This document shows positions 13,685 through 49,308 of a stretch of 64,000 bases of DNA, piece after piece (the first letter of the stretch is position 1; every line of letters begins with the position of its first letter). The notes beneath the pieces were generated by a model. That model did no database searches and was not told where the DNA came from. It was given only the letters and a program-made list of their open reading frames with translations. A program made the translations under genes and the position numbers. Where the stretch lies: NCBI RefSeq assembly GCF_005795905.1, contig NZ_VAWE01000001.1, positions 6,313,001 to 6,377,000 on the forward strand, in the 5' to 3' direction. This stretch comes from Streptomyces marianii. GTDB taxonomy: Bacteria > Actinomycetota > Actinomycetes > Streptomycetales > Streptomycetaceae.

Positions 13685-14512
13685 TCATGCAATGCCCTTG
13701 GGTCTGACGGACTGCGGTTCGGCGAGAGGATCGAACGAAATTCGAAGGTCCTCGTATTGGGTGGGTTCAATTTTGAGTTCGCCCCTGAAGGGGTCGTCCA
13801 TTGCCGCAATCACGAAAATCATCAAAGCTAGAGTCGTGCTCGCCATGAGTGAAATCAGAATATGCATCCTCATCGACTTCACGGGCAGTAGGAAAATTGA
13901 CGCCAGAGTTGAGATCGCCCCAACGTAGACGATGACCCACAGCACTGCAGGAATCGTTTGGTTCACCTCTCCCAGTCGCCCGCGCCGCGCATCCAGGAAG
14001 TCTCCGTAAGCTGAAAGTGTTTCTTGATAGATGGCGTTCTGCCTGTTTGTGGTGGGCTCGAATTTGTATAGCTTGTCGAGGAAGTTGGTGACCTCTTGGC
14101 GGCATAGGCGTGTTGGGTTTGCGCCCTGACTCTGCGCTGGCCACTCCTTTTCTAGCACGCAGTCGAGGTAGGCTTTGATGTCATCTTGCATTCTCCCTCT
14201 GTCCGGCTCCGGGAAGGCCTCGATGAGCCTGTAGGAGTGGGAGATTTCGTTTGCCTCTGTCTGGGTCGACGAGGAGGCTGTCGAAAAGTCCTGATAGGTC
14301 GCGACGATGATCAAGGCGACCAGGAGTCCGTAGAACACGATGATGGCATTGGAGAAGACTTGACAAATGTCCCCCCACTTCGGCTCTCTGTCGATGGTTT
14401 GCGTGAGGTACTTTCGCGCGGCCAGCGTTCCCGCCATTGCGATTGCACCGAAAACCAGGATGAAGATGAGCGCCGAAGGCCAAAGAGGCACATCGTAGAA
14501 GATGCTAATCAT
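13685..14512 (-). CDS. DUF4239-like integral membrane protein, low G+C
   Basis: 275 residues starting at ATG with GAGGAAAA directly before it. Membrane segments are seen at about 8-28 and 50-68 and as a pair in the C-terminal half (PAVLWVIVYVGAISTLASIFLL and ILISLMASTTLALMIFVIAAMDD). This 2+2 arrangement with a soluble helical middle fits DUF4239, whose function is unknown. Base composition is strikingly low for this genome: 32 of 60 bases are G or C at 14281-14340, against about 70% around it. With IS remains immediately upstream, recent acquisition is likely. Confidence 0.75.
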   Translation of the reverse strand: MISIFYDVPLWPSALIFILVFGAIAMAGTLAARKYLTQTIDREPKWGDICQVFSNAIIVFYGLLVALIIVATYQDFSTASSSTQTEANEISHSYRLIEAFPEPDRGRMQDDIKAYLDCVLEKEWPAQSQGANPTRLCRQEVTNFLDKLYKFEPTTNRQNAIYQETLSAYGDFLDARRGRLGEVNQTIPAVLWVIVYVGAISTLASIFLLPVKSMRMHILISLMASTTLALMIFVIAAMDDPFRGELKIEPTQYEDLRISFDPLAEPQSVRPKGIA

Positions 14513-14774
14513 TTTTCCTCGGATGGAAACGGAAGTGCAATTTGACCTGAATATACTTGCTCGGCCCGGATCCGCCACGTGACGGTCGGGTGATGGCGGC
14601 CAAATGTGAGGAGGTGCCTTTACCAGTCCCACGAAGCAGGACACCGCTGAATCCGGCTGCGCGCCGGATTCGCCGACGGCGGCGGCCATATGATTCCGCA
14701 GTGTCCACCCGGCAATATCCGGCTTCCGGGCGATCTCGGACGCGGCCGCTCTTCCCGCGGCAAGCGCCAGGACC

Positions 14775-15232
14775 CGCGGTTCATACCTGCGGCGGGCCGT
14801 CGACCAGGACGGCAACGTCCTGGACATTCTTGTGCAGTCCCGCCGGGACAAGGCTGCGGCCAGGCGCTTCGTCCGCAGGCTGCTGAAGAAGACCGGTGCG
14901 GTGCCGAGGGTGGTCGTCACCGACAAGCTCCGCTCCTACGGCGCGGCTCACCGTGAGGTCATGCCCTCGGTGGAGCACCGCTCGCACAAGGGGCTGAAGC
15001 AACCGGGCGGGAGAACAGTCACCAGCCCACTCGCCAGCGCGAACGGGCGATGAAGGGCTTCCGCTCCGCTGGAGCAGCCCAGCGGTTCCTGTCCGCGTTC
15101 AGCGGCATCTCACCCCACTGCCGGCCCCACCGCCACCGGATGGCCGCACACAACTACCGAGCCGAAATGACCCTCCGCTTCATGCTCTGGGAGCAGGTCA
15201 CCGGAGTCGCCGGCCTGCCCACCAAGGGCTGA
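14775..15232 (+). pseudogene. IS6-family transposase remnant, 5'-truncated and frameshifted
   Basis: From about 14784 the translation matches the middle of IS6-family transposases (YLRRAVDQDGNVLD, then RRDKAAARRFVRRLLKK, VVTDKLRSYGAAHREVMP). The catalytic Glu region (RENSHQPTRQRER) and the C-terminal part (MKGFRS, FLSAFSGISPH, HRMAAHNYRAEM) are in another frame. Two extra G bases around 14998-15015, relative to the usual L-N-N-R-A-E-N codons, explain the shift. The N-terminal helix-turn-helix and the first catalytic Asp are missing. No inverted repeat ends were found. Confidence 0.82.
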
Positions 15233-15580
15233 GCAGCAACCCGGAACCGGGCTTCACCACGCCCCGACGCGCCGCCAGACACCCACGCACTCAACAACGT
15301 GACAACGCCTCTCGCCCGGGTACCGGTGCCCCTTGTACGACGGCGACACGGATCCCACGAACGGCCCCTCCCGCCCTGATCAACACCAAGATCATCCTAC
15401 GAGCCAGCCAACGTGACAACGCCGCTGCCGTGACTACTGGCCGCCTGCGGGGCGAACTACACGGCCATTGACACGTGTCGCGCACACCTGTCCGGCCGTG
15501 CATAGCTAGAAGTCCGGGCCGGGCCGAGATTAGATCGGCTTCGGAAGGACTATTCGCCCTCGAGACGCTGAGGACACACC
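15233..15580. other. intergenic region with a 15-bp direct repeat
   Basis: CAACGTGACAACGCC occurs at 15295-15309 and 15409-15423. No gene is seen. This may be debris of the degraded IS region. Confidence 0.4.
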
Positions 15581-16045
15581 ATGAGAACTTCGCGCGCGCT
15601 GCCGCTGTGCGTACTGACCGTCTTCCCCGCCGTGCTCAGTGCGCCTCTGGCCCACGCGGACACCGGCCACGACAAGGACCGCGTGAAGAAGATCACCCTG
15701 ACCACCACCGACCCCCAGGGGCAGTTCCCCAATTTCACTGCCGACCTGGTCAACTCGAAGGGCGAGACCGTCGGCTTCGTCACGACCAACTGTGTCCTGG
15801 CGGCTTCCACTCCCCAGACCAGCACCTGCTACGGGTCCTATGTCCTCGAAGACGGCCAGATCACGTGGCAGAACGCCACGCGCGATCCGCAGCCCCCCTT
15901 TCTGACCGCCATCACCGGAGGAACCGGCAAGTACTGCGACGCCAGCGGCCAGATCCGCGTGGTCAGAACCTCGTCGGACCCCGAAGGCGGCCTCTACCAG
16001 CTCGAAGTCATCACCAGCCGCAAGTGCTCCACTTCCCAAGCTTGA
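15581..16045 (+). CDS. secreted protein with allene-oxide-cyclase/dirigent-like barrel
   Basis: 154 residues with a clear signal peptide (cleavage likely after LAHA, about 26). The mature part has the pattern of the AOC/dirigent beta-barrel: D-x-K-x-G-E-T-V-G-F strand, CYGSYVLEDGQITWQN and AITGGTGKYCDASGQIRV, the last being the hallmark aITGGTG.Y..a.G motif. Three Cys pairs are possible. Bacterial members are secreted and mostly uncharacterised; AOC activity should not be assumed. It stands alone among mobile-element remains. Confidence 0.75.
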   Translation: MRTSRALPLCVLTVFPAVLSAPLAHADTGHDKDRVKKITLTTTDPQGQFPNFTADLVNSKGETVGFVTTNCVLAASTPQTSTCYGSYVLEDGQITWQNATRDPQPPFLTAITGGTGKYCDASGQIRVVRTSSDPEGGLYQLEVITSRKCSTSQA

Positions 16046-40385: not shown

Positions 40386-41894
40386 TCAGCCCAGGTCGCC
40401 GTGGGCCGTGCGCTCGGCCAGCCTGACCAGGGTGCGGACCGCGGAGCCGGTGCCGCCCTTGGGGGTGTAGCCGAACGGCGCGCCCTCGTGGAAGGCCGGG
40501 CCCGCGATGTCCAGGTGGGCCCAGGTGATGCCCTCGCCGACGAACTCCTTCAGGAACAGTCCCGCGACCAGGCCACCGCCCATCCGCTCGCCCATGTTCG
40601 CGATGTCGGCGGTCGGGGAGTCCATGCCCTTGCGCAGGTCCGCGGGGAGCGGCATCGGCCAGGAGTCCTCGCCGGCCTCCTCCGCGATCTCGTGGACCGA
40701 GGTGCGGAACGCCTCGTCGTTGGACATGATCCCGAAGCGCCGGTGGCCCAGCGCCAGGACCATCGCGCCGGTCAGCGTCGCCACGTCCACGATCGCGTCC
40801 GGGTTCTCCTCCGAGGCCTTGGTGATCGCGTCGGCCAGCACCAGACGGCCCTCCGCGTCGGTGTTGAGCACCTCGACCGTCTTGCCGCTGTACATGCGCA
40901 GGACGTCGCCGGGCCGGGTGGCGTTGCCCGACGGCATGTTCTCGGCCAGCGCCAGCCAGCCGGTGAGGTTCACGCGCAGCCCGAGCCGGGCCACCGCGAC
41001 GACGGCGGCGAACACGGCGGCGGCGCCGCTCATGTCGCACTTCATCGTCTCGTTGTGGCCGGCCGGCTTCAGCGAGATGCCGCCGGAGTCGTAGGTGATG
41101 CCCTTGCCGACGAGCGCGAGGGACTTCTCCGCGTCCGGGTGCGTGTACGCCAGCTTCACCAGGCGCGGGCCGTGGGCCGCGCCCTGGCCGACGCCGAGGA
41201 TGCCGCCGAAGCCCCCCTTGACGAGCGCCTTCTCGTCCCAGACCTGCACCTTGAGGCCGTGCTCCTTGCCGGCGGCGGTGGCGACGGCGGCGAACGACTC
41301 GGGGTAGAGGTCGTTCGGCGGTGTGTTGATCAGGTCGCGGGCGCGGTTCATCTCGCCGGCCACGGCGACGGCACGCTCCGCGGCGGCCTTGAAGGCCTTG
41401 TCGCGCGGCTTGGTGCCCAGCAGCGCCACCTCGGCCAGCGGCTTCTTGGCGTTCTTCTCGTCCTGGTAGGCGGTGAAGGCGTACGCGCCCAGCAGGGCGC
41501 CCTCCGCGATCGCCTGGGCGTCCTCGGCGGCCTCGACCGGCAGCGCGAACGCGGCCTTCTTCGAGCCGGCCAGCGCGCGGGCGGCGGAACCGGCGGCGCG
41601 GCGCAGCGACTCGGCCGGATACGCGTCGTCCTTCTCCGGCGCGGCGCCGAGCCCGACCGCGATCACGACCGGGGCCTTCAGGCCCGACGGCGCGGGCAGC
41701 TTGGTCACCTCGCCCTCGGTACCGGAGGCGCCGAGGGTCTCGAGGACGGTGGCGAGCTTCCCGTCGAACGCCGCGTCCACGGCCTCGGCGCCGGCTGCGA
41801 CGACCGGGCCCTTGGTGCCCTTGGCGACGCCGACGACGACCGCGTCGGCGCGCAGCGTCGCAGCGCCGGCTGTGCTGAGAGTGAGAGCAGTCAC
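40386..41894 (-). CDS. pepA: leucyl aminopeptidase (M17)
   Basis: 502 residues, normal for the family. It removes N-terminal residues from peptides in the cytoplasm with two metal ions. The catalytic domain shows GKGITYDSGGISLKP (catalytic Lys and metal Asp) and the M17 signature NTDAEGRLVLADA, preceded by MKCDMSGAAAV. The start is GTG. Monocistronic, divergent from the polysaccharide deacetylase. Confidence 0.96.
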   Translation of the reverse strand: MTALTLSTAGAATLRADAVVVGVAKGTKGPVVAAGAEAVDAAFDGKLATVLETLGASGTEGEVTKLPAPSGLKAPVVIAVGLGAAPEKDDAYPAESLRRAAGSAARALAGSKKAAFALPVEAAEDAQAIAEGALLGAYAFTAYQDEKNAKKPLAEVALLGTKPRDKAFKAAAERAVAVAGEMNRARDLINTPPNDLYPESFAAVATAAGKEHGLKVQVWDEKALVKGGFGGILGVGQGAAHGPRLVKLAYTHPDAEKSLALVGKGITYDSGGISLKPAGHNETMKCDMSGAAAVFAAVVAVARLGLRVNLTGWLALAENMPSGNATRPGDVLRMYSGKTVEVLNTDAEGRLVLADAITKASEENPDAIVDVATLTGAMVLALGHRRFGIMSNDEAFRTSVHEIAEEAGEDSWPMPLPADLRKGMDSPTADIANMGERMGGGLVAGLFLKEFVGEGITWAHLDIAGPAFHEGAPFGYTPKGGTGSAVRTLVRLAERTAHGDLG

Positions 41895-42196
41895 GGTGGT
41901 GAAATCTCGCTTCCGTTGAGTTTCCTGGGCCGAAGTGGTGGGTCGGCCGCCCGGCGCATCGTAAGTCGGGCGGGCCGGAGCGCCGCCACGAGCCTACGCG
42001 CGCCCGCGATGTTCGCTCGTGCCGACGGGGATTCACCCATCCGTGGTGTCTCCGCAGAGTTGCCCACCCGACCGGCGAGTCCTGCGCCACACTCGGGCCG
42101 AATGCGCAAGGGAGCAAGTGGCTGCTTTGCATGATTTCCACATGTCCTCCCCGGTGTCTTCGCAGGGGAGGATCAACAAGGGGTGGGGGAAACACC
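41895..42196. other. divergent promoter region pepA / deacetylase
   Basis: 302 bases. Apart from the hairpin at 42145-42172 nothing specific is seen. Confidence 0.35.
42145..42172 (+). promoter_or_regulatory. leader hairpin before the deacetylase gene
   Basis: TCCTCCCC (42145-42152) pairs perfectly with GGGGAGGA (42165-42172), 12-base loop, ending 24 bases before the ATG. It contains a Shine-Dalgarno-like GGGGAGGA in the stem and could influence translation. Confidence 0.3.
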
Positions 42197-44347
42197 ATGG
42201 CACCCGTATTCGCCACGGGGTTCGGCACGCGTGCACTGACGAGCGGATCCGGCCGGGCATCCGCGCCGGGCGCGCTTCACGGGGGAACGGCCGGGCGGGG
42301 GCCCGGCCGAGGGGGCAGGCTCGGCGCGGCGGCGGTCGCGCTCACCACGTCGGCGCTGTTCGCGGCGGCACTGCCCGCGTCCCCGGCGGCGGCCGCCGAG
42401 CCGGTGCCGAGGGTCGACCTGAAGGTCCTCGTCGTCGACGACGGAGGCTCGGCGGTCGCCGCCGTCACCTCCGAGCTGCGCAGCACCGGCGTCCCGTACA
42501 GCGTGCTCGACCTCGGGGACCCGGGCCGTCCGAAGATCGACGCGGAGTTCCTGAGCGACACCGTGAGCGGCCGGCCGCGTGCCAAGTACCAGGGAGTGGT
42601 GCTGCCGAACGAGGCCCCGTTCGGGTCGGACTCCGCCGGGACCGCCGAGCAGGCCGCGCTCGTCGCGTACGAGAAGCGGTTCGGCGTCCGCCAGGTCGAC
42701 GCCTACACCTGGGCCCACCCGGGAGTGGGGCTCGACTACACCAGCGAGGGCGGCTGGTCCGGCACGCTCGACGGCACGGCGGCCGCGGTGACCGCGGCGG
42801 GCCGGTCCGGTCCGTTCGGGTACCTCGACGGCGCCCTGGCCTTCGAGGACAACGCGCCGGGGATCAGCGAGAGCTACGGCTACCTGGCCCGCCCGCGCGA
42901 GGGATTCACCAGCTTCGTGGACGCCCCGGTGCCGGGCGGCGAGGGCCGCGCCAGCCTCCTCGGGGAGTACGCCCACGACGGGCGCAGCGAGCTCGTCGTC
43001 ACCTTCGCGTACAACCAGCACCAGCGGCAGTTCCGGCTGCTGGCGCGCGGCATCGTCGAATGGCTCACCCAGGGCGTCCACCTCGGTCAGAGCCGCAACT
43101 ACTTCTCGGTCCACATCGACGACGTCTTCGCGCCCGACGCCCGCTGGGACACCGAGCGCAACTGCACGCCCGGAGACATCGACTGCGCAGGCGGAGCGGG
43201 CGAGCAGACCCCGGACATCAGGATGACCGCCGCCGACGCGCAGTACGCCGCCCAGTGGCAGCAGACCAGCGGCTTCACCCTCGACATGGTCTACAACGCG
43301 GGCGCCGGCGAGGAGTGGAAGGCCGAGAACGGCGGTGCGGACGCGCTCACCGCGCAGCTGCTCGCCGACCGGGCCCAGTACCGCTGGGTCAACCACACCT
43401 ACACCCACCCGTTCCTCGGCTGTGTCCAGGACGTCTCCGTCGTCCCCTGGCAGTGCTCGAAGGACTCGGCGGGCAACATCCGCTGGATGAGCCGCGCCGA
43501 GATCTCCGCGCAGATCCGCGACAACCTCGACTGGGCGGTGAGCAAGGGCGTCTCCGTCGACCGCACGGAGCTCGTCACCGGAGAGCACTCGGGGCTGAAG
43601 ACGCTTCCGCAGCAGCCCGTGGACAACCCCAACCTGGCGCCCGCGCTCGCCGACAACGGCGTCAGGTGGATCGCGAGCGACAACTCCCGCGAGCCGCAGC
43701 AGCGCCCCGTCGGCAGCGCCGTCACCGTGCCCCGCCACCCGATGAACGTGTACTACAACGTGGGCACGGCGGCCGAGATGGCCGACGAGTACAACTGGAT
43801 CTACACCTCCCGGGCCGACGGCGGAAGCGGTATCTGCGAGACCAACCCGGCCTCCACCTGCCTGGACGAACCGCTCGACGTGGCCACCGGCTACGGCACG
43901 TACATCGTCCCGCAGGAGGCCAGGATCGCCCTCGGCCACATCGTGGCCAACGACCCTCGTCCGCACTACGTCCACCAGTCCAACCTGGCCGAGGGCCGGA
44001 TCCTCTACCCCGTCCTCGACCGGATCCTGGACGACTACCGGGCGCTGTTCGCCGACAACACACCCCTCGTCAACCCGCGCCACCGCGACGCCGGCACGGA
44101 ACTGGGCCGCCGCGCCGCCTGGCAGTCGGCCCTCGACGCCGGCCGGGTCACCGCGTACCGGATCGGCACCACCGTCACCGTCCAGGCCCCCACCGGCGTG
44201 GTCGTCCCGGTCACCGCACCCGAGGGCACCCGCAAGCAACTCCTGCTCGGCACGAGCGTCTTCGGCACCGCCTACGCCGGTCAGCGCTCGGCCTGGACCC
44301 AGCCGGAGCTGCTGCAGTCCGCCGTCACCCTGCGGCTGCCCTCCTGA
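42197..44347 (+). CDS. secreted Agd3/PelA-like polysaccharide deacetylase
   Basis: 716 residues. After an Ala/Gly-rich N-terminus a hydrophobic signal (about residues 48-72, ending PAAAA) exports the protein. The first third (VDLKVLVVDDGG onward) resembles a carbohydrate-binding/ancillary domain. The second half carries SVHIDDVFAPDARWD (metal Asp), WVNHTYTHPFLGC (His-x3-His) and SGLKTLPQQP/GVRWIASDNSREPQ strands, which fit the CE18-type deacetylase of fungal Agd3 and the PelA C-terminus, enzymes that deacetylate N-acetylgalactosamine polymers. I assign family by these motifs from memory. It is first in a four-gene locus with PelF-like, membrane and GH114 proteins, which supports the assignment strongly. 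Confidence 0.8.
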   Translation: MAPVFATGFGTRALTSGSGRASAPGALHGGTAGRGPGRGGRLGAAAVALTTSALFAAALPASPAAAAEPVPRVDLKVLVVDDGGSAVAAVTSELRSTGVPYSVLDLGDPGRPKIDAEFLSDTVSGRPRAKYQGVVLPNEAPFGSDSAGTAEQAALVAYEKRFGVRQVDAYTWAHPGVGLDYTSEGGWSGTLDGTAAAVTAAGRSGPFGYLDGALAFEDNAPGISESYGYLARPREGFTSFVDAPVPGGEGRASLLGEYAHDGRSELVVTFAYNQHQRQFRLLARGIVEWLTQGVHLGQSRNYFSVHIDDVFAPDARWDTERNCTPGDIDCAGGAGEQTPDIRMTAADAQYAAQWQQTSGFTLDMVYNAGAGEEWKAENGGADALTAQLLADRAQYRWVNHTYTHPFLGCVQDVSVVPWQCSKDSAGNIRWMSRAEISAQIRDNLDWAVSKGVSVDRTELVTGEHSGLKTLPQQPVDNPNLAPALADNGVRWIASDNSREPQQRPVGSAVTVPRHPMNVYYNVGTAAEMADEYNWIYTSRADGGSGICETNPASTCLDEPLDVATGYGTYIVPQEARIALGHIVANDPRPHYVHQSNLAEGRILYPVLDRILDDYRALFADNTPLVNPRHRDAGTELGRRAAWQSALDAGRVTAYRIGTTVTVQAPTGVVVPVTAPEGTRKQLLLGTSVFGTAYAGQRSAWTQPELLQSAVTLRLPS

Positions 44348-44371
44348 CCGGGCCGGCCCGGTAGTTCCGCG

Positions 44372-44400
44372 CGCACCCCGGCCCGCACGGCCGGGGTGCG
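44372..44400 (+). terminator. hairpin between deacetylase and PelF-like genes
   Basis: A perfect 12-bp stem (44372-44383 with 44389-44400) with a 5-base loop, 24 bases beyond the deacetylase stop; may be partial, with pelF-like transcription starting anew. Confidence 0.65.
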
Positions 44401-44525
44401 TCGCCCCGCGCTTCCGCGCGCCCCGCTCGTGCCGGGGGCACCTCACGGGCCCCGGCCCTTCGAGGCCTCAGCACCCTCAGACCCTCAGTACGTCAACACC
44501 GTCATGTCCAGGGGGACACAGCACG

Positions 44526-46091
44526 ATGAGCCAGGGACGCCGTGTCACCATGCTCACCGAAGGCACCTATCCACACGTCCACGGCGGTGTCAGCACCTGG
44601 TGCGACCAACTGGTCCGGGGCATGCCCGAGGTCGACTTCACCGTCATCTCCCTCACCGGCAGCGGCCGTGAGCCCGTCACCTGGGAGCTGCCACCCAACG
44701 TCCGCGCCCACACCGTCGTTCCGCTGTGGGGGCCGCGGCCCGGCCGCGGCCGCTCCCCGCGCCGCGGCGCCGACCGCAGCCGCTTCCTCGACACCCTCGA
44801 GCGCTTCCTGCTGTCCCTGCTCGCCCCCGAGGCACACGCCGACTTCGGCCCCGCGCTCGACGAGCTGGCCGACGAGGCGCGCGGGGGCCGGCTCTCCGCC
44901 GCACTCCGCACCGAGGCCGCCGTCCGCACCCTGATGCGCCTGTGGACCCGGCAATCCCTGCCCACCGCCGCCGCCGGACCCACCGTCCACGACGCCCTCA
45001 CCGCGGTCGACCTGCTCGAACACGCTCTGCGCCCGCTGGCGGTGCGCATCCCGGGGGGCAGCGTCGCCCACGCCGTCAGCAGCGGCCTCGCCACCCTGCC
45101 CGCACTCGCCGCACAGCGCCTGGACGGGGTGCCGTTCCTCCTCACCGAGCACGGCGTCTATCTGCGCGAGCGCTACCTCGGATACCGCACCGAGGCACCG
45201 CGCTGGCCGGTCAAGGCGCTGATGCTCGGCTTCTACCGCGAGCTCAACACACTCGGCTACGAGCGCGCCGATCTGATCACCCCGTGCAACCACTACAACC
45301 GGCGCTGGGAGGAGCGCGGCGGCGCGCTCCCCGGAAAGATCCGCACGGTCTACAACGGCGTCGACCCGCGCGCCTTCCCGCACGCCGGGGCCGAACCGTC
45401 CGTGCCCACCCTCAGCTGGGCCGGCCGGATCGACCCCGTCAAGGACCTCGAGACGCTGGTCCGTGCCTTCGCCCTGGCCCGGGCGGAGGTCCCGGACCTG
45501 CGGCTGCGGCTGTTCGGCGCGGCGCCGGCCGGGTGCGAGTGGTACGCCACCGGGCTGGAGAAGCTGGCCGCCGAACTGGGCGTCGCCGACGGGGTGTTCT
45601 GGGAGGGCCGGATCGACGACGTGGCGCGCGCGTACGCCGCGGGGCACGTCGTGATGCTCTCCAGCATCAGCGAGGGCTTCCCGTTCTCGATCATCGAGGC
45701 GATGTCCTGCGGGCGCACGACGGTGTCCACCGACGTGGGCGGGGTGCGCGAGGCCGTCGGCGACACCGGCCTGGTGGTCCCGCCGCGCGAGCCCGAGGCG
45801 CTGGCCGCCGCCGCCCTGGAACTGCTCCGGGACGACGCGCGCCGCGCCGAACTGGGCCGCCGTGCCCGGCAGCGGGTCGTGGACCTCTTCACCCTGAGGC
45901 GTTCGGTGGACGCCTTCCGGCAGATCTACCGGGAGCTCGCCGGTACGCCGGGGGCGGTGTACGAGCCGCCGGCCGCCGAGACGGTCGCCGACTGGACCCT
46001 GGAGCTGAGGGACCCCTGGTACCAGGAGCACACGGCCTGGGGGCACCACTGGTCCGAACCCTCCGCGTCCGCCGGAGGGGGCACCCGGTGA
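44526..46091 (+). CDS. PelF-type GT4 glycosyltransferase
   Basis: 521 residues. The N-terminal DUF3492-type half has TEGTYPHVHGGVSTWCDQLV and LTEHGVYLRERYL, both marks of PelF. The C-terminal GT-B half has VYNGVDP, SWAGRIDPVKDLETL and EGFPFSIIEAMSCGRTTVSTDVGG, the nucleotide-sugar-binding region with its Glu. PelF polymerises UDP-N-acetylhexosamine (galactosamine in Pel) in the cytoplasm. The stop overlaps the next start by GTGA, so the two are translationally coupled. An alternative is a general GT4, but the N-terminal motifs favour PelF. Confidence 0.87.
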   Translation: MSQGRRVTMLTEGTYPHVHGGVSTWCDQLVRGMPEVDFTVISLTGSGREPVTWELPPNVRAHTVVPLWGPRPGRGRSPRRGADRSRFLDTLERFLLSLLAPEAHADFGPALDELADEARGGRLSAALRTEAAVRTLMRLWTRQSLPTAAAGPTVHDALTAVDLLEHALRPLAVRIPGGSVAHAVSSGLATLPALAAQRLDGVPFLLTEHGVYLRERYLGYRTEAPRWPVKALMLGFYRELNTLGYERADLITPCNHYNRRWEERGGALPGKIRTVYNGVDPRAFPHAGAEPSVPTLSWAGRIDPVKDLETLVRAFALARAEVPDLRLRLFGAAPAGCEWYATGLEKLAAELGVADGVFWEGRIDDVARAYAAGHVVMLSSISEGFPFSIIEAMSCGRTTVSTDVGGVREAVGDTGLVVPPREPEALAAAALELLRDDARRAELGRRARQRVVDLFTLRRSVDAFRQIYRELAGTPGAVYEPPAAETVADWTLELRDPWYQEHTAWGHHWSEPSASAGGGTR

Positions 46092-47497
46092 GCGGCACGC
46101 CGCGGCCGAAGGGCCCGGGGACGGCCGTGCGGGACGCCCTGCCGCCGACACCGGACAAGCGGGGCCCCGCCCGGGCCGGGAGCGACCCGGTCGACGAACT
46201 GGCCGGGCGGCTGGCCGGTTTCGTGGCGACCGCGGTCCATCCCGACGAGGTGGCGGCGCTGCTGGAGTCCGACGGGCTGACGGACGAGCAGATACGCCGG
46301 CGGTACGGACACGACGACTCCTTCGCCCTCGCGGAGGACCTGTACGCGCGCGTCGAGCGGCGCTTCCCGCGGTCCGAGGAACCGCCGCCGGGCCCCGGTA
46401 GCCCGGCGCTCCTCGTGTGTCTGCTGCGGGGCCTGCTGTTCACCCTCCCGGGGCTCGGCCACGTCCTGGCCGCTCCGGTCCTCGGGGCCGGTCGCCCCGC
46501 CCACGTCCCGCTGCTGGCGGCGGCGCTGGCCGGCTGGGCCTGGAACCAGGCCCTCGCCCACCGCGCTTACACCTGGCTGGGACTGGGCGAACGCCCGGCG
46601 GCGGCCCGGGCGCTGCTGCGGGGCGCGCCCGTGGGGGTGCTGCTCGGCGCTGCCGCCGCCGCGGCCGCCGCACCCGTTCATGTTCCGGCGCTCCTGTTCG
46701 CCGCGGGACAGTCGCTCTATCTCGCCGCGGCGACGGTGCTGCTGGTCCTCGGCCGGGAGCGTGTCCTGCTGCCGGCCCTGCTGCCGCTGGTGGGCGGGGT
46801 GCTGCTCGCGGCGGTGCACCCGGTGCCCGCCTGGGCGCACCTCGTGCTCCCCCTGGCGTCGGTCACCGCGGCCGTGGGCCTCGCGGCGGGCGCGGTCACG
46901 GGCGTGCTGCGGTCGGCGGGCTCAGCCGGCCGTGGCCGGAACGGATGCCGGCGCACGGGGCCGGGAGGGCTGGGCGGTTCGGTGCCGTACGGCCTCTTCG
47001 GGCTCGGCTCCGGGGTGCTGGTGCTCCATGTCGCCCTGGAGTCACCGCCGTTCGCGGTGGCCCTCACTCTCGGCATGGGCCCCGCGGAGTGGCTGCTGTA
47101 CCGGTTCCGCGCCGACAGCCTCGCCGGACTGCGGGCCTGCACCTCCCCGCGCGCCTTCCGGATGTCGGTCGCGGCGGCGCTGGTGCGTGCCCTCGCCGGG
47201 TACGCGGGCGCCCTGCTGACGCTCATGGCCGCCGCGCTGCTGCTGTGGCCAGGCGGGGGAGCCGGCCCGGACCCGGCCACCGCGGCCGGTGTGCTGCTGC
47301 TCGGGGCGGTGCTGTGGAACGGGCTGCTGCTCCAGGCGTTCGGGGCCGTGCTGAGTCCCGCACTGGTGTGCTGTGCGGCCGCGCTCCTCCCGCCGCTCCT
47401 GCCCGGTTCGGAGCTGCTTCTCGTCCCGGCCGCCGCGTCGGCGGTGCTCGTCCTGCTGGTCTGTGCTCAGCTGGGCCGGATCACCGCACATCGCTGA
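46088..47497 (+). CDS. polytopic membrane protein (about 12 segments), possible PelG-like exporter
   Basis: 469 residues. A soluble N-terminal helical domain (about 1-105, VDELAGRLAGFVATAV, LTDEQIRRRYGHDD) precedes roughly 11-12 hydrophobic segments rich in Leu/Ala/Gly. The count and position after the PelF-like gene, with a 4-base overlap, match PelG, the MATE-like membrane partner of PelF. No sequence motif proves this, and I cannot exclude another transporter fold. It is followed 13 bases later by the GH114 gene. Confidence 0.7.
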   Translation: MSGTPRPKGPGTAVRDALPPTPDKRGPARAGSDPVDELAGRLAGFVATAVHPDEVAALLESDGLTDEQIRRRYGHDDSFALAEDLYARVERRFPRSEEPPPGPGSPALLVCLLRGLLFTLPGLGHVLAAPVLGAGRPAHVPLLAAALAGWAWNQALAHRAYTWLGLGERPAAARALLRGAPVGVLLGAAAAAAAAPVHVPALLFAAGQSLYLAAATVLLVLGRERVLLPALLPLVGGVLLAAVHPVPAWAHLVLPLASVTAAVGLAAGAVTGVLRSAGSAGRGRNGCRRTGPGGLGGSVPYGLFGLGSGVLVLHVALESPPFAVALTLGMGPAEWLLYRFRADSLAGLRACTSPRAFRMSVAAALVRALAGYAGALLTLMAAALLLWPGGGAGPDPATAAGVLLLGAVLWNGLLLQAFGAVLSPALVCCAAALLPPLLPGSELLLVPAAASAVLVLLVCAQLGRITAHR

Positions 47498-47510
47498 GGG
47501 AGCCCCGGAC

Positions 47511-48314
47511 ATGAGCCTTCCCGCCCGGACGAGAGGCCTGCTGCTGCCGCTCATGGCCCTGCTGCTGCTCGCCGGCTGCACCTCCGTCCCGGACGACCCC
47601 GCGCCGCCGCGCACCACCCGCTGGCTGCCGGGGCCCGGCACGCCGTGGCAGTGGCAGCTCAGCGGCCGGCTGGACCGGGACGTGGACGTCCCGGTGTACG
47701 ACATCGACGGCTTCGAGCACCCGAGGTCCACGGTCGCCGACCTCCAGCGGCGCGGCCGGAAGGTGATCTGCTACCTGTCCACCGGCGCCTGGGAGGAGTT
47801 CCGCCCCGATGCCGCGCGGTTCCCCCGGGAACTGCTCGGCAAGGGGAACGGCTGGCCGGGGGAGCGCTGGCTCGACATCCGCCGCACGGACGTGCTGGAG
47901 CCGCTGATGGCCGAGCGCTTCGACATGTGCCGGGACAAGGGCTTCGACGCGGTCGAGCCCGACAACATGGACGGCTACGCCAACGACACCGGCTTCCCCC
48001 TCACCGCCGGCGACCAGCTCCGCTACAACCGGCTGATCGCCCGGATGGCCCATGAGCGGGGGATGTCGGTCGGGCTGAAGAACGACCTGGACCAGATCCC
48101 CGAGCTCGTCGGCGACTTCGACTTCGCCGTCAACGAACAGTGTGCGCAGTACGCGGAGTGTGCGGCGCTGACGCCGTTCGTCGAGGCGGGCAAGGCCGTC
48201 TTCCATGTCGAGTACGAGGTGCCGGCCGGCCGCTTCTGCCCCCAGGCGCGGCGGCTCGGACTGAGTTCGATGCTGAAGCGCTACGAACTGGACGCCTGGC
48301 GCCGGCCCTGCTGA
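47511..48314 (+). CDS. GH114 endo-alpha-1,4-polygalactosaminidase-like lipoprotein
   Basis: 267 residues. A signal with lipobox (LLAGC, Cys about 23) anchors it to the membrane outside. The barrel shows WQWQLSG, VYDIDGFE, VICYLSTGAWEEFRPD, FDAVEPDNMDGYAND, SVGLKNDLDQI and FAVNEQCAQY, a recognisable GH114 series in which the Asp of YDIDG and the Glu of VEPDN are the probable acids. GH114 enzymes cut alpha-1,4-galactosamine polymers such as fungal galactosaminogalactan. In this locus it would trim or release the polymer made by the PelF-like protein. Last gene of the locus. Confidence 0.9.
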   Translation: MSLPARTRGLLLPLMALLLLAGCTSVPDDPAPPRTTRWLPGPGTPWQWQLSGRLDRDVDVPVYDIDGFEHPRSTVADLQRRGRKVICYLSTGAWEEFRPDAARFPRELLGKGNGWPGERWLDIRRTDVLEPLMAERFDMCRDKGFDAVEPDNMDGYANDTGFPLTAGDQLRYNRLIARMAHERGMSVGLKNDLDQIPELVGDFDFAVNEQCAQYAECAALTPFVEAGKAVFHVEYEVPAGRFCPQARRLGLSSMLKRYELDAWRRPC

Positions 48315-48399
48315 CCCGGCTCCACCGGGGACCTGCCGCCCGTGCGGGTGGGCAGGCAGCGGGACCGGGCGGCCTCCGGGGTCCGGTGCGGGCTCCCGC

Positions 48400-48501
48400 C
48401 GCTCGCCCGTGCCCGCCGCTCGCCGGTGCCCGCCGCTCGCCGGTGCCCGCCGCTCGCCGGTGCCCGCCGCTCGCCGGTGCCCGCCGCTCGCCGGTGCCCG
48501 G
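48400..48501. repeat. 17-bp tandem repeat, six copies
   Basis: Units start at 48400, 48417, 48434, 48451, 48468 and 48485 (CGCTCGCCGGTGCCCGC, the first with one change). They lie between the convergent GH114 and cobS genes. Confidence 0.9.
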
Positions 48502-48510
48502 CGCGGCCGG

Positions 48511-49308
48511 CTACCAGGGCGACCCGACGACGAGCGCGAGCAGCACCGCGGTGGCCGCCGTCTCCGCGATCCCCCCGAACACGTCGCCCGTGACCCCGCC
48601 GAAGCGCCGGACGCAGTGCCGCAGCAGCAGTTCGGCGGCGGCGGTCCCGGCGAGTACGGTCAGCGCGAGCCGCAGCGGCCCGTACCCGCCCGGCAGCGTT
48701 CCCCAGGCGGCGCAGACGGCGGCGACCACGAGGGTGACCGCCAGCGCCTGCCGCACCGGGACGGTGGCGGCGACCATCGCGCCCAGCCCCTCCGGGCGGG
48801 CTGCGGGGACGCCGGTGCGGGAAGCGAGCGTCAGCGCCAGTCGGGCCACGACTCCGGCGGTGGCCGCCGCCGTCGCCCCGTACGCCCAGCCGCGCCCGTA
48901 GAGTTCGTACAGCGCCGAGACCTGGGCCAGCAGCACGAACAGCAGGGTGATCACCCCGAACGGGCCGATGTCCGACCGCTTCATGATCCTCAGCGCGTCC
49001 TCGGCGGGCTTGCCGCTGCCCAGGCCGTCGGCGGTGTCGGCGAGTCCGTCCAGATGCAGACCGCGGGTGAGCACGGCGGGCACGGCGGCGGAGGCGACCG
49101 CGGCGAGCAGCGGGCCCGCGCCGAGCAGCAGGAGCATCCCGCCGGCGGCCGCCGCACAGAGGCCGACGGCGAGCCCGGCGAGCGGGGCCCAGCGCATTCC
49201 GGAACGTGCCGCGTCGCGGTCCCAGCGGGTCACGCGCACCGGCAGCACCGTGAGGGTGCCGAAGGCGAACCGCAGGCCCACGGGTCCGTCTGTGTTGAGG
49301 GAGCTCAC
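48511..49308 (-). CDS. cobS: adenosylcobinamide-GDP ribazoletransferase
   Basis: 265 residues. It joins alpha-ribazole to adenosylcobinamide-GDP, the last step of cobalamin assembly, in the membrane. LTRGLHLDGLADTADGLGSG is the family's Asp-rich metal motif, followed by MKRSDIGPFGV; five to six membrane segments follow. The tandem repeat of 48400-48501 lies just past its stop. It is separated from cobT/cobU by two other genes on this strand. Confidence 0.94.
   Translation of the reverse strand: MSSLNTDGPVGLRFAFGTLTVLPVRVTRWDRDAARSGMRWAPLAGLAVGLCAAAAGGMLLLLGAGPLLAAVASAAVPAVLTRGLHLDGLADTADGLGSGKPAEDALRIMKRSDIGPFGVITLLFVLLAQVSALYELYGRGWAYGATAAATAGVVARLALTLASRTGVPAARPEGLGAMVAATVPVRQALAVTLVVAAVCAAWGTLPGGYGPLRLALTVLAGTAAAELLLRHCVRRFGGVTGDVFGGIAETAATAVLLALVVGSPW

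Follow-up and report, generated by a model that had tools for sequence, protein, structure and literature searches.

A unit of four plus-strand genes between pepA and cobS (both on the minus strand) in the Streptomyces marianii genome appears to be an exopolysaccharide locus of the Pel/galactosaminogalactan (GAG) type that belongs to a distinct actinobacterial branch, a reading to which we assign a probability of about 0.78. The unit lies in a stretch of 64,000 nucleotides (C1:6313001-6377000 of a 9.0 Mb genome), hereafter the window, and the named homologues nearest to the window genes come from Streptomyces. In order, the genes encode an Agd3-like deacetylase, a PelF-type glycosyltransferase, a membrane protein that we call MEM and a GH114 hydrolase; all four, reported at 42197..48314 in a preliminary description of this DNA, are present on the plus strand. 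Judged from sequence, the cluster, which is conserved in Streptomyces, appears capable of assembling a galactosamine-based surface polymer, exporting it through a protein of its own, deacetylating it in part and trimming it. Such a polymer would be akin to the adhesive ones of Pseudomonas and Aspergillus.

Enzymes of the locus

The glycosyltransferase gene (44526..46091, plus strand) encodes a cytoplasmic GT4 protein of 521 residues with a DUF3492 domain. Its scores against the NCBIfam PelF model (NF038011; 164.5 bits, cut-off 100) and the Pfam DUF3492 model (193.2 bits) bear out its earlier assignment as a PelF-type transferase. The EX7E motif typical of the GT4 family occurs as EGFPFSIIE at residues 383-391, one of four matches to this pattern in the protein. 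In a tree of 36 PelFs, a 100/100 branch splits 32 rows associated with MEM or with the intermediate proteins described below from four rows associated with canonical PelG, although two of these four are short and the tool flags long branches meeting. By this sequence comparison, the window PelF is placed on a separate branch.

The last gene of the unit (47511..48314, plus strand) encodes a GH114 endo-alpha-1,4-polygalactosaminidase of 267 residues, which matches the Pfam GH114 model at 290.2 bits (cut-off 27) and the fungal enzyme Ega3 (6OJ1) at E 1.5e-61. The nucleophile and acid/base of Ega3 are given as Asp189 and Glu247, 58 residues apart (PMC12054363); D151 and E209 of the window protein are likewise 58 residues apart, in motif contexts as in Ega3. 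A lipobox-like LLAGC with the cysteine at residue 23, judged by eye, agrees with the lipoprotein predicted before.

The first gene (42197..44347, plus strand, ATG start) encodes a predicted secreted polysaccharide de-N-acetylase of 716 residues, related to CE18 and CBM87, with a hydrophobic signal-like stretch that begins at residue 42. The Pfam models CBM87_Agd3 (22.9 bits, E 7.9e-5) and Agd3_CE (16.2 bits, E 0.005) both fall under the curated cut-off of 27.6 bits, and we therefore label the protein Agd3-like and CE18-related rather than a member of CE18; among the deacetylase homologues listed, precomputed PF25115 matches are found on 5 of 120. The catalytic residues are in place, which supports the Agd3-like label given earlier. 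D308, D309, H400, H404, R513 and H593 align with D377, D378, H510, H514, R613 and H668 of Agd3, whose roles are described in PMC7229062. The five that correspond to the base, metal triad and acid of Agd3 (D308, D309, H400, H404 and H593) are invariant in 15/15 aligned sequences, and R513 is kept in 14 of the 15. All four catalytic motifs, CM1-CM4, are present in an alignment with relatives, two of which match Agd3_CE at E 1.6e-26 and 1.7e-37, and a direct alignment with 6NWZ covers CM1, CM3 and CM4.

Among solved structures, Agd3 of Aspergillus fumigatus was recovered at E 1.7e-29, in two collinear stretches, by a mixed profile that combined the window deacetylase with five of its close homologues and with three more distant relatives from bacteria other than Streptomyces. 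Neither the single sequence nor a Streptomyces-only profile recovered Agd3 in this search, which suggests that the relation runs via intermediate bacterial sequences. From these comparisons the window deacetylase is best described as part of a bacterial branch that is linked to fungal Agd3 through other bacteria, and the term "fungal-type" used for it before does not apply.

MEM, the proposed exporter

MEM (46088..47497, plus strand, 469 residues) has an N-terminal helical domain (about residues 34-88) followed by 12 transmembrane helices (106-468), and its start overlaps the pelF stop as GTGA, matching the earlier account of a GTGA-coupled protein of about 12 segments. It matches no Pfam or NCBIfam family. 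The gene is backed by 1240 homologues and by its conserved position; codon-position G+C supports coding by agd3, pelF and gh114, and the same script preferred an overlapping minus-strand frame over the MEM gene. The structural model of MEM shows the 12-helix fold of the MOP superfamily. MEM is thus predicted to have a MOP flippase fold, and from this fold and its position we infer that it exports the chain.

PelG belongs to the MOP class. MEM shares with PelG / EPS-E (PF16933) its place after pelF and 12 helices of similar spacing, but has an extra N-terminal helical domain and no significant sequence match: PF16933 matched neither MEM nor 18 members of its family, a profile search of the whole genome gave no PelG at E <= 1, and hhalign of MEM against 12 PelGs gave E 0.57. 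We accordingly rejected membership of MEM in the PelG family by sequence as unproven.

A link may run through intermediate proteins (L097, L098 and L099) that combine the MEM N-terminal domain with a membrane part resembling PelG. When two of these were scanned with the Pfam PelG model, L097 matched at E 2.4e-4, under the cut-off, and L099 gave no match. Aligned to PelG with hhalign, the intermediates gave E 0.22 with thin profiles and E 8.5e-4 with the 12 PelGs (rows L113 and L116 trimmed to 480 residues); their membrane part alone gave E 8.4e-5 at probability 60, with reversed controls at 0.04 and 0.06. MEM matched the intermediates at E 3.9e-12 across 414 columns, but at E 0.2 once the N-terminal domain was removed, in a comparison that kept 82/86 MEM rows since the domain-cutting pattern failed on 4. 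Left out of the MEM set were L042 and L044, which are split matches, L046, which is short, and the rows from locus III. Canonical PelG was found above cut-off in 3/296 actinobacterial genomes, between pelF and an Agd3 gene in two and between pelF and GH114 in one; three weak matches under the cut-off came from G437, G450 and G534, of which G437 alone could be linked to a pelF locus. We regard the MEM-PelG link as suggestive and the MOP fold as the firmer evidence.

In the family f47 genomes (L097:6109-14586, L099:6016-12083), the neighbours of pelF are the gene for the intermediate exporter and those for one or two unassigned proteins of ~710-730 residues, and the L097 PelF protein carries HEAT repeats. 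A MEM-Spherulin4 fusion (P0299) looks frameshifted or misassembled and was not used. SCO2174-2178 are presumably the S. coelicolor numbers for this place. SCO2176 is listed among strongly predicted transmembrane proteins in PMC3087755.

Conservation in Streptomyces and the paralogous loci

An Agd3-like match, in some cases partial, was found in 69/150 genomes of the genus. A scan of named genomes gave 201 stretches coding for a protein related to P0212, an Agd3 from Streptomyces, and we took the best 80 of these. pepA adjoins all 80 loci (80/80), and in 66 of them, the spanning loci, the stretch reaches cobS or cobT. pelF and MEM are each present in 64/66 spanning loci, a Spherulin4 gene (PF12138, GH135/Sph3-type) in 62/66, GH114 in 58/66 and both hydrolase genes in 55/66; pelF and MEM are missing at L199 and one further spanning locus. 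At the window locus a Spherulin4/sph3-type gene gave no hit, and there is no room for one between 47497 and 47511. With this gene in 62 of the 66 relatives, the window represents one variant of a fuller five-gene locus, and GH114 likewise occurs without Spherulin4 at L190 (S. wuyuanensis), L193 and L212 (S. pacificus). pepA is also the neighbour in 28/40 further fetched regions, whose genomes partly overlap the first scan. Agd3 genes without pelF or MEM nearby occur at L145, L146, L155 and L199, which perhaps are decayed loci or reflect some other use of the deacetylase. P0212 carries an S. griseus label in nr, but its best match among named genomes is in S. filamentosus (93%), and we make no claim that it accounts for the galactosaminidase reported long ago from S. 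griseus.

Besides the locus of the window (locus I), the genome holds two paralogous loci that lie outside the window and do not figure in the preliminary description. Locus II, at about C1:7.725-7.735 Mb, comprises agd3 (in two frames), pelF, MEM, a LegB-like dehydratase, a nucleotidyltransferase, an SDR gene, Spherulin4 and GH114. Its sugar genes at L006:8444-11122 (LegB-like 4,6-dehydratase, nucleotidyltransferase and a second SDR) suggest, from their families, a different nucleoside diphosphate (NDP) sugar. LegB scores 450 bits, under its cut-off of 475, which makes a 6-deoxy sugar at this locus a guess. The locus II agd3 is split at L006:15843-15849 (about 7.7338 Mb), and the locus II agd3 matches of G351 and G332 are likewise listed with an inside stop; the split is due to either sequencing error or decay. 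Locus III, at about C1:2.88 Mb (L007:5710-10572) beside moeZ, holds a PelF-like gene whose product scores 104.4 bits, barely above the cut-off of 100, together with a shortened MEM-like gene, an SDR gene and Spherulin4, and gave no agd3 or GH114 hit. Both locus types recur in other Streptomyces, and the agd3 hit is missing in 3/11 locus II regions of other genomes (L034, L045 and L046). One region labelled locus II, L144, falls with locus I in the PelF tree and has neither a pepA neighbour nor any of the sugar genes.

Known systems, proposed mechanism and rival explanations

The galactosaminogalactan cluster of Aspergillus contains uge3, gtb3, sph3, ega3 and agd3. Agd3- and Ega3-like enzymes are encoded in the window and an Sph3-like gene in most of its relatives, as counted above, whereas PelF and MEM stand where Aspergillus has its own synthase and the window locus has no epimerase gene. 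The window locus falls into one class with the agd3 operons that Bamford et al. 2020 (PMC7229062) predicted in bacteria: these, too, combine an Agd3 homologue with a cytoplasmic glycosyltransferase, a membrane protein of several spans and, in most cases, GH114, and some of those from Actinobacteria include Spherulin-4 genes. In the available part of that source the Gram-positive glycosyltransferase is not named PelF-type and the membrane protein is not assigned, whereas here the latter has a predicted MOP fold and a weak PelG link. Searches that set out from the pel proteins of Pseudomonas and used pelF and pelG as anchors found pel loci in Gram-positive bacteria (PMC7112168, PMC7112194). The window locus accordingly belongs to a kind already known by prediction; in literature searches that covered few subscription journals, we met no work that characterises this Streptomyces locus, names its exporter or describes either the pepA-cobS locus or the set of three paralogous loci.

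Bacillus cereus pelDEADAFG (PMC7112168, PMC13254593) resembles the window in that a gene for a membrane exporter (there pelG) comes after pelF and in that a surface deacetylase is encoded, but this deacetylase founds CE26 (PMC13254593) while that of the window is Agd3-like. The window unit differs further in its GH114 hydrolase and in a genome that has no PelG match and no PelD above cut-off (best PelD_GGDEF match in the whole genome E 0.86), so that control by cyclic di-GMP (c-di-GMP) via PelD is unlikely. For PelD, the earlier observation that no PelA, PelB, PelC or PelD is visible is thus borne out above cut-off in the whole genome, where PelG gave no match either. The view of the locus as a "reduced" Gram-positive Pel system is nevertheless doubtful: a MOP-fold protein of its own takes PelG's place, its PelF falls on a separate branch, and the usual form of the locus has the additional GH135-type gene.

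In the mechanism that we propose, UDP-N-acetylgalactosamine (UDP-GalNAc) would be supplied by an epimerase encoded elsewhere, and the genome contains three GalE matches above cut-off. As its family suggests, PelF would polymerise UDP-GalNAc at the inner membrane face, and the chain would cross the membrane via MEM, the predicted MOP-fold protein in PelG's place. Outside, the Agd3-like enzyme, which has the required residues, may strip some acetyl groups and leave a positively charged polymer. The GH114 lipoprotein could cut deacetylated stretches on the outer face, setting chain length or freeing polymer. By analogy alone, the product would probably serve as an adhesive matrix on hyphae, and the hyphal adhesion or pellet formation suggested earlier is likewise conjectural.

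The same machinery could instead make a polymer not based on GalNAc, with another N-acetylhexosamine (HexNAc) or a 6-deoxy-HexNAc as maybe at locus II. The window PelF is distant from better-matching PelFs, and the LegB-like dehydratase, nucleotidyltransferase and second SDR of locus II point to other NDP sugars; but GH114 is close to the galactosaminidase Ega3, the window locus has no sugar-modifying gene and Agd3 is reported to be active on alpha-1,4-GalNAc (PMC7229062), and we consider such a polymer unlikely. It is quite unlikely, too, that MEM is a flippase for lipid-linked sugars and that PelF adds sugar to a lipid carrier or to a glycan of the wall, with no free exopolysaccharide made. 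A scan of the four genes together with four neighbours showed no sugar-phosphate transferase or polymerase, the MEM model scores higher against MATE, and the genes are conserved together with endo-hydrolase and deacetylase types known from free polymers.

The secreted enzymes might also attack the polymers of competing fungi, in foraging or defence, with no polymer made by the cell itself. Streptomyces griseus is reported to have a galactosaminidase activity (PMC7229062, PMC12054363), and the four loci with Agd3 but no pelF nearby would fit such a use. However, pelF and MEM are steadier across the spanning loci than GH114 itself, and GH114 is a predicted lipoprotein rather than freely secreted, which makes this explanation very improbable.

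The reading of the window unit as a Pel/GAG-type exopolysaccharide locus leads to a broader proposal, which we hold tentatively and at somewhat less than even odds: that Streptomyces and other actinobacteria have a third galactosamine-polymer lineage, beside Gram-negative/Firmicute Pel and fungal GAG. It would be marked by a separate PelF branch, a so far unnamed family of MOP exporters that have an N-terminal helical domain of their own, and the lack of a detected PelD-type c-di-GMP receptor, and would be duplicated within one genome into loci whose polymers differ chemically (that of locus II possibly built from a 6-deoxy-HexNAc). If so, PelG-based surveys would miss it. If the Pel/GAG-type reading is right, Streptomyces would have one more system for a matrix polymer in addition to CslA/GlxA and MatAB (PMC5972031), and, with the missing exporter proposed, an actinomycete galactosamine polymer would become directly testable. 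The locus is relevant, too, to the proposal that the galactosaminogalactan genes of fungi came from bacteria (PMC7229062): Agd3, Spherulin4/Sph3 and Ega3/GH114 types occur together in 55 of the 66 spanning Streptomyces loci.

Within the unit, agd3 ends 178 bases before pelF, so that a single transcript can only be presumed, and MEM is separated by 13 bases from the ATG start of gh114. The conserved neighbours, pepA (leucyl aminopeptidase, 40386..41894, minus strand) on the left and cobS (48511..49308, minus strand) on the right, stand outside the pathway. The divergent pepA/agd3 intergenic region (41895..42196) contains blocks conserved in a phylogenetic footprint of 37 aligned locus-I loci, for example TTTGCATGATTTCCACA at 42126-42142. 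A 17-base tandem unit occupies 48395-48504 in the gh114-cobS gap (6.5 copies, 97% matches). Elsewhere in the window, G+C falls to 63% at 14001-16000, against 68-78% in the other 2-kb steps, and an overlapping gene (13685-14926) has weak codon-position bias; the low-G+C stretch is possibly a recent insertion.
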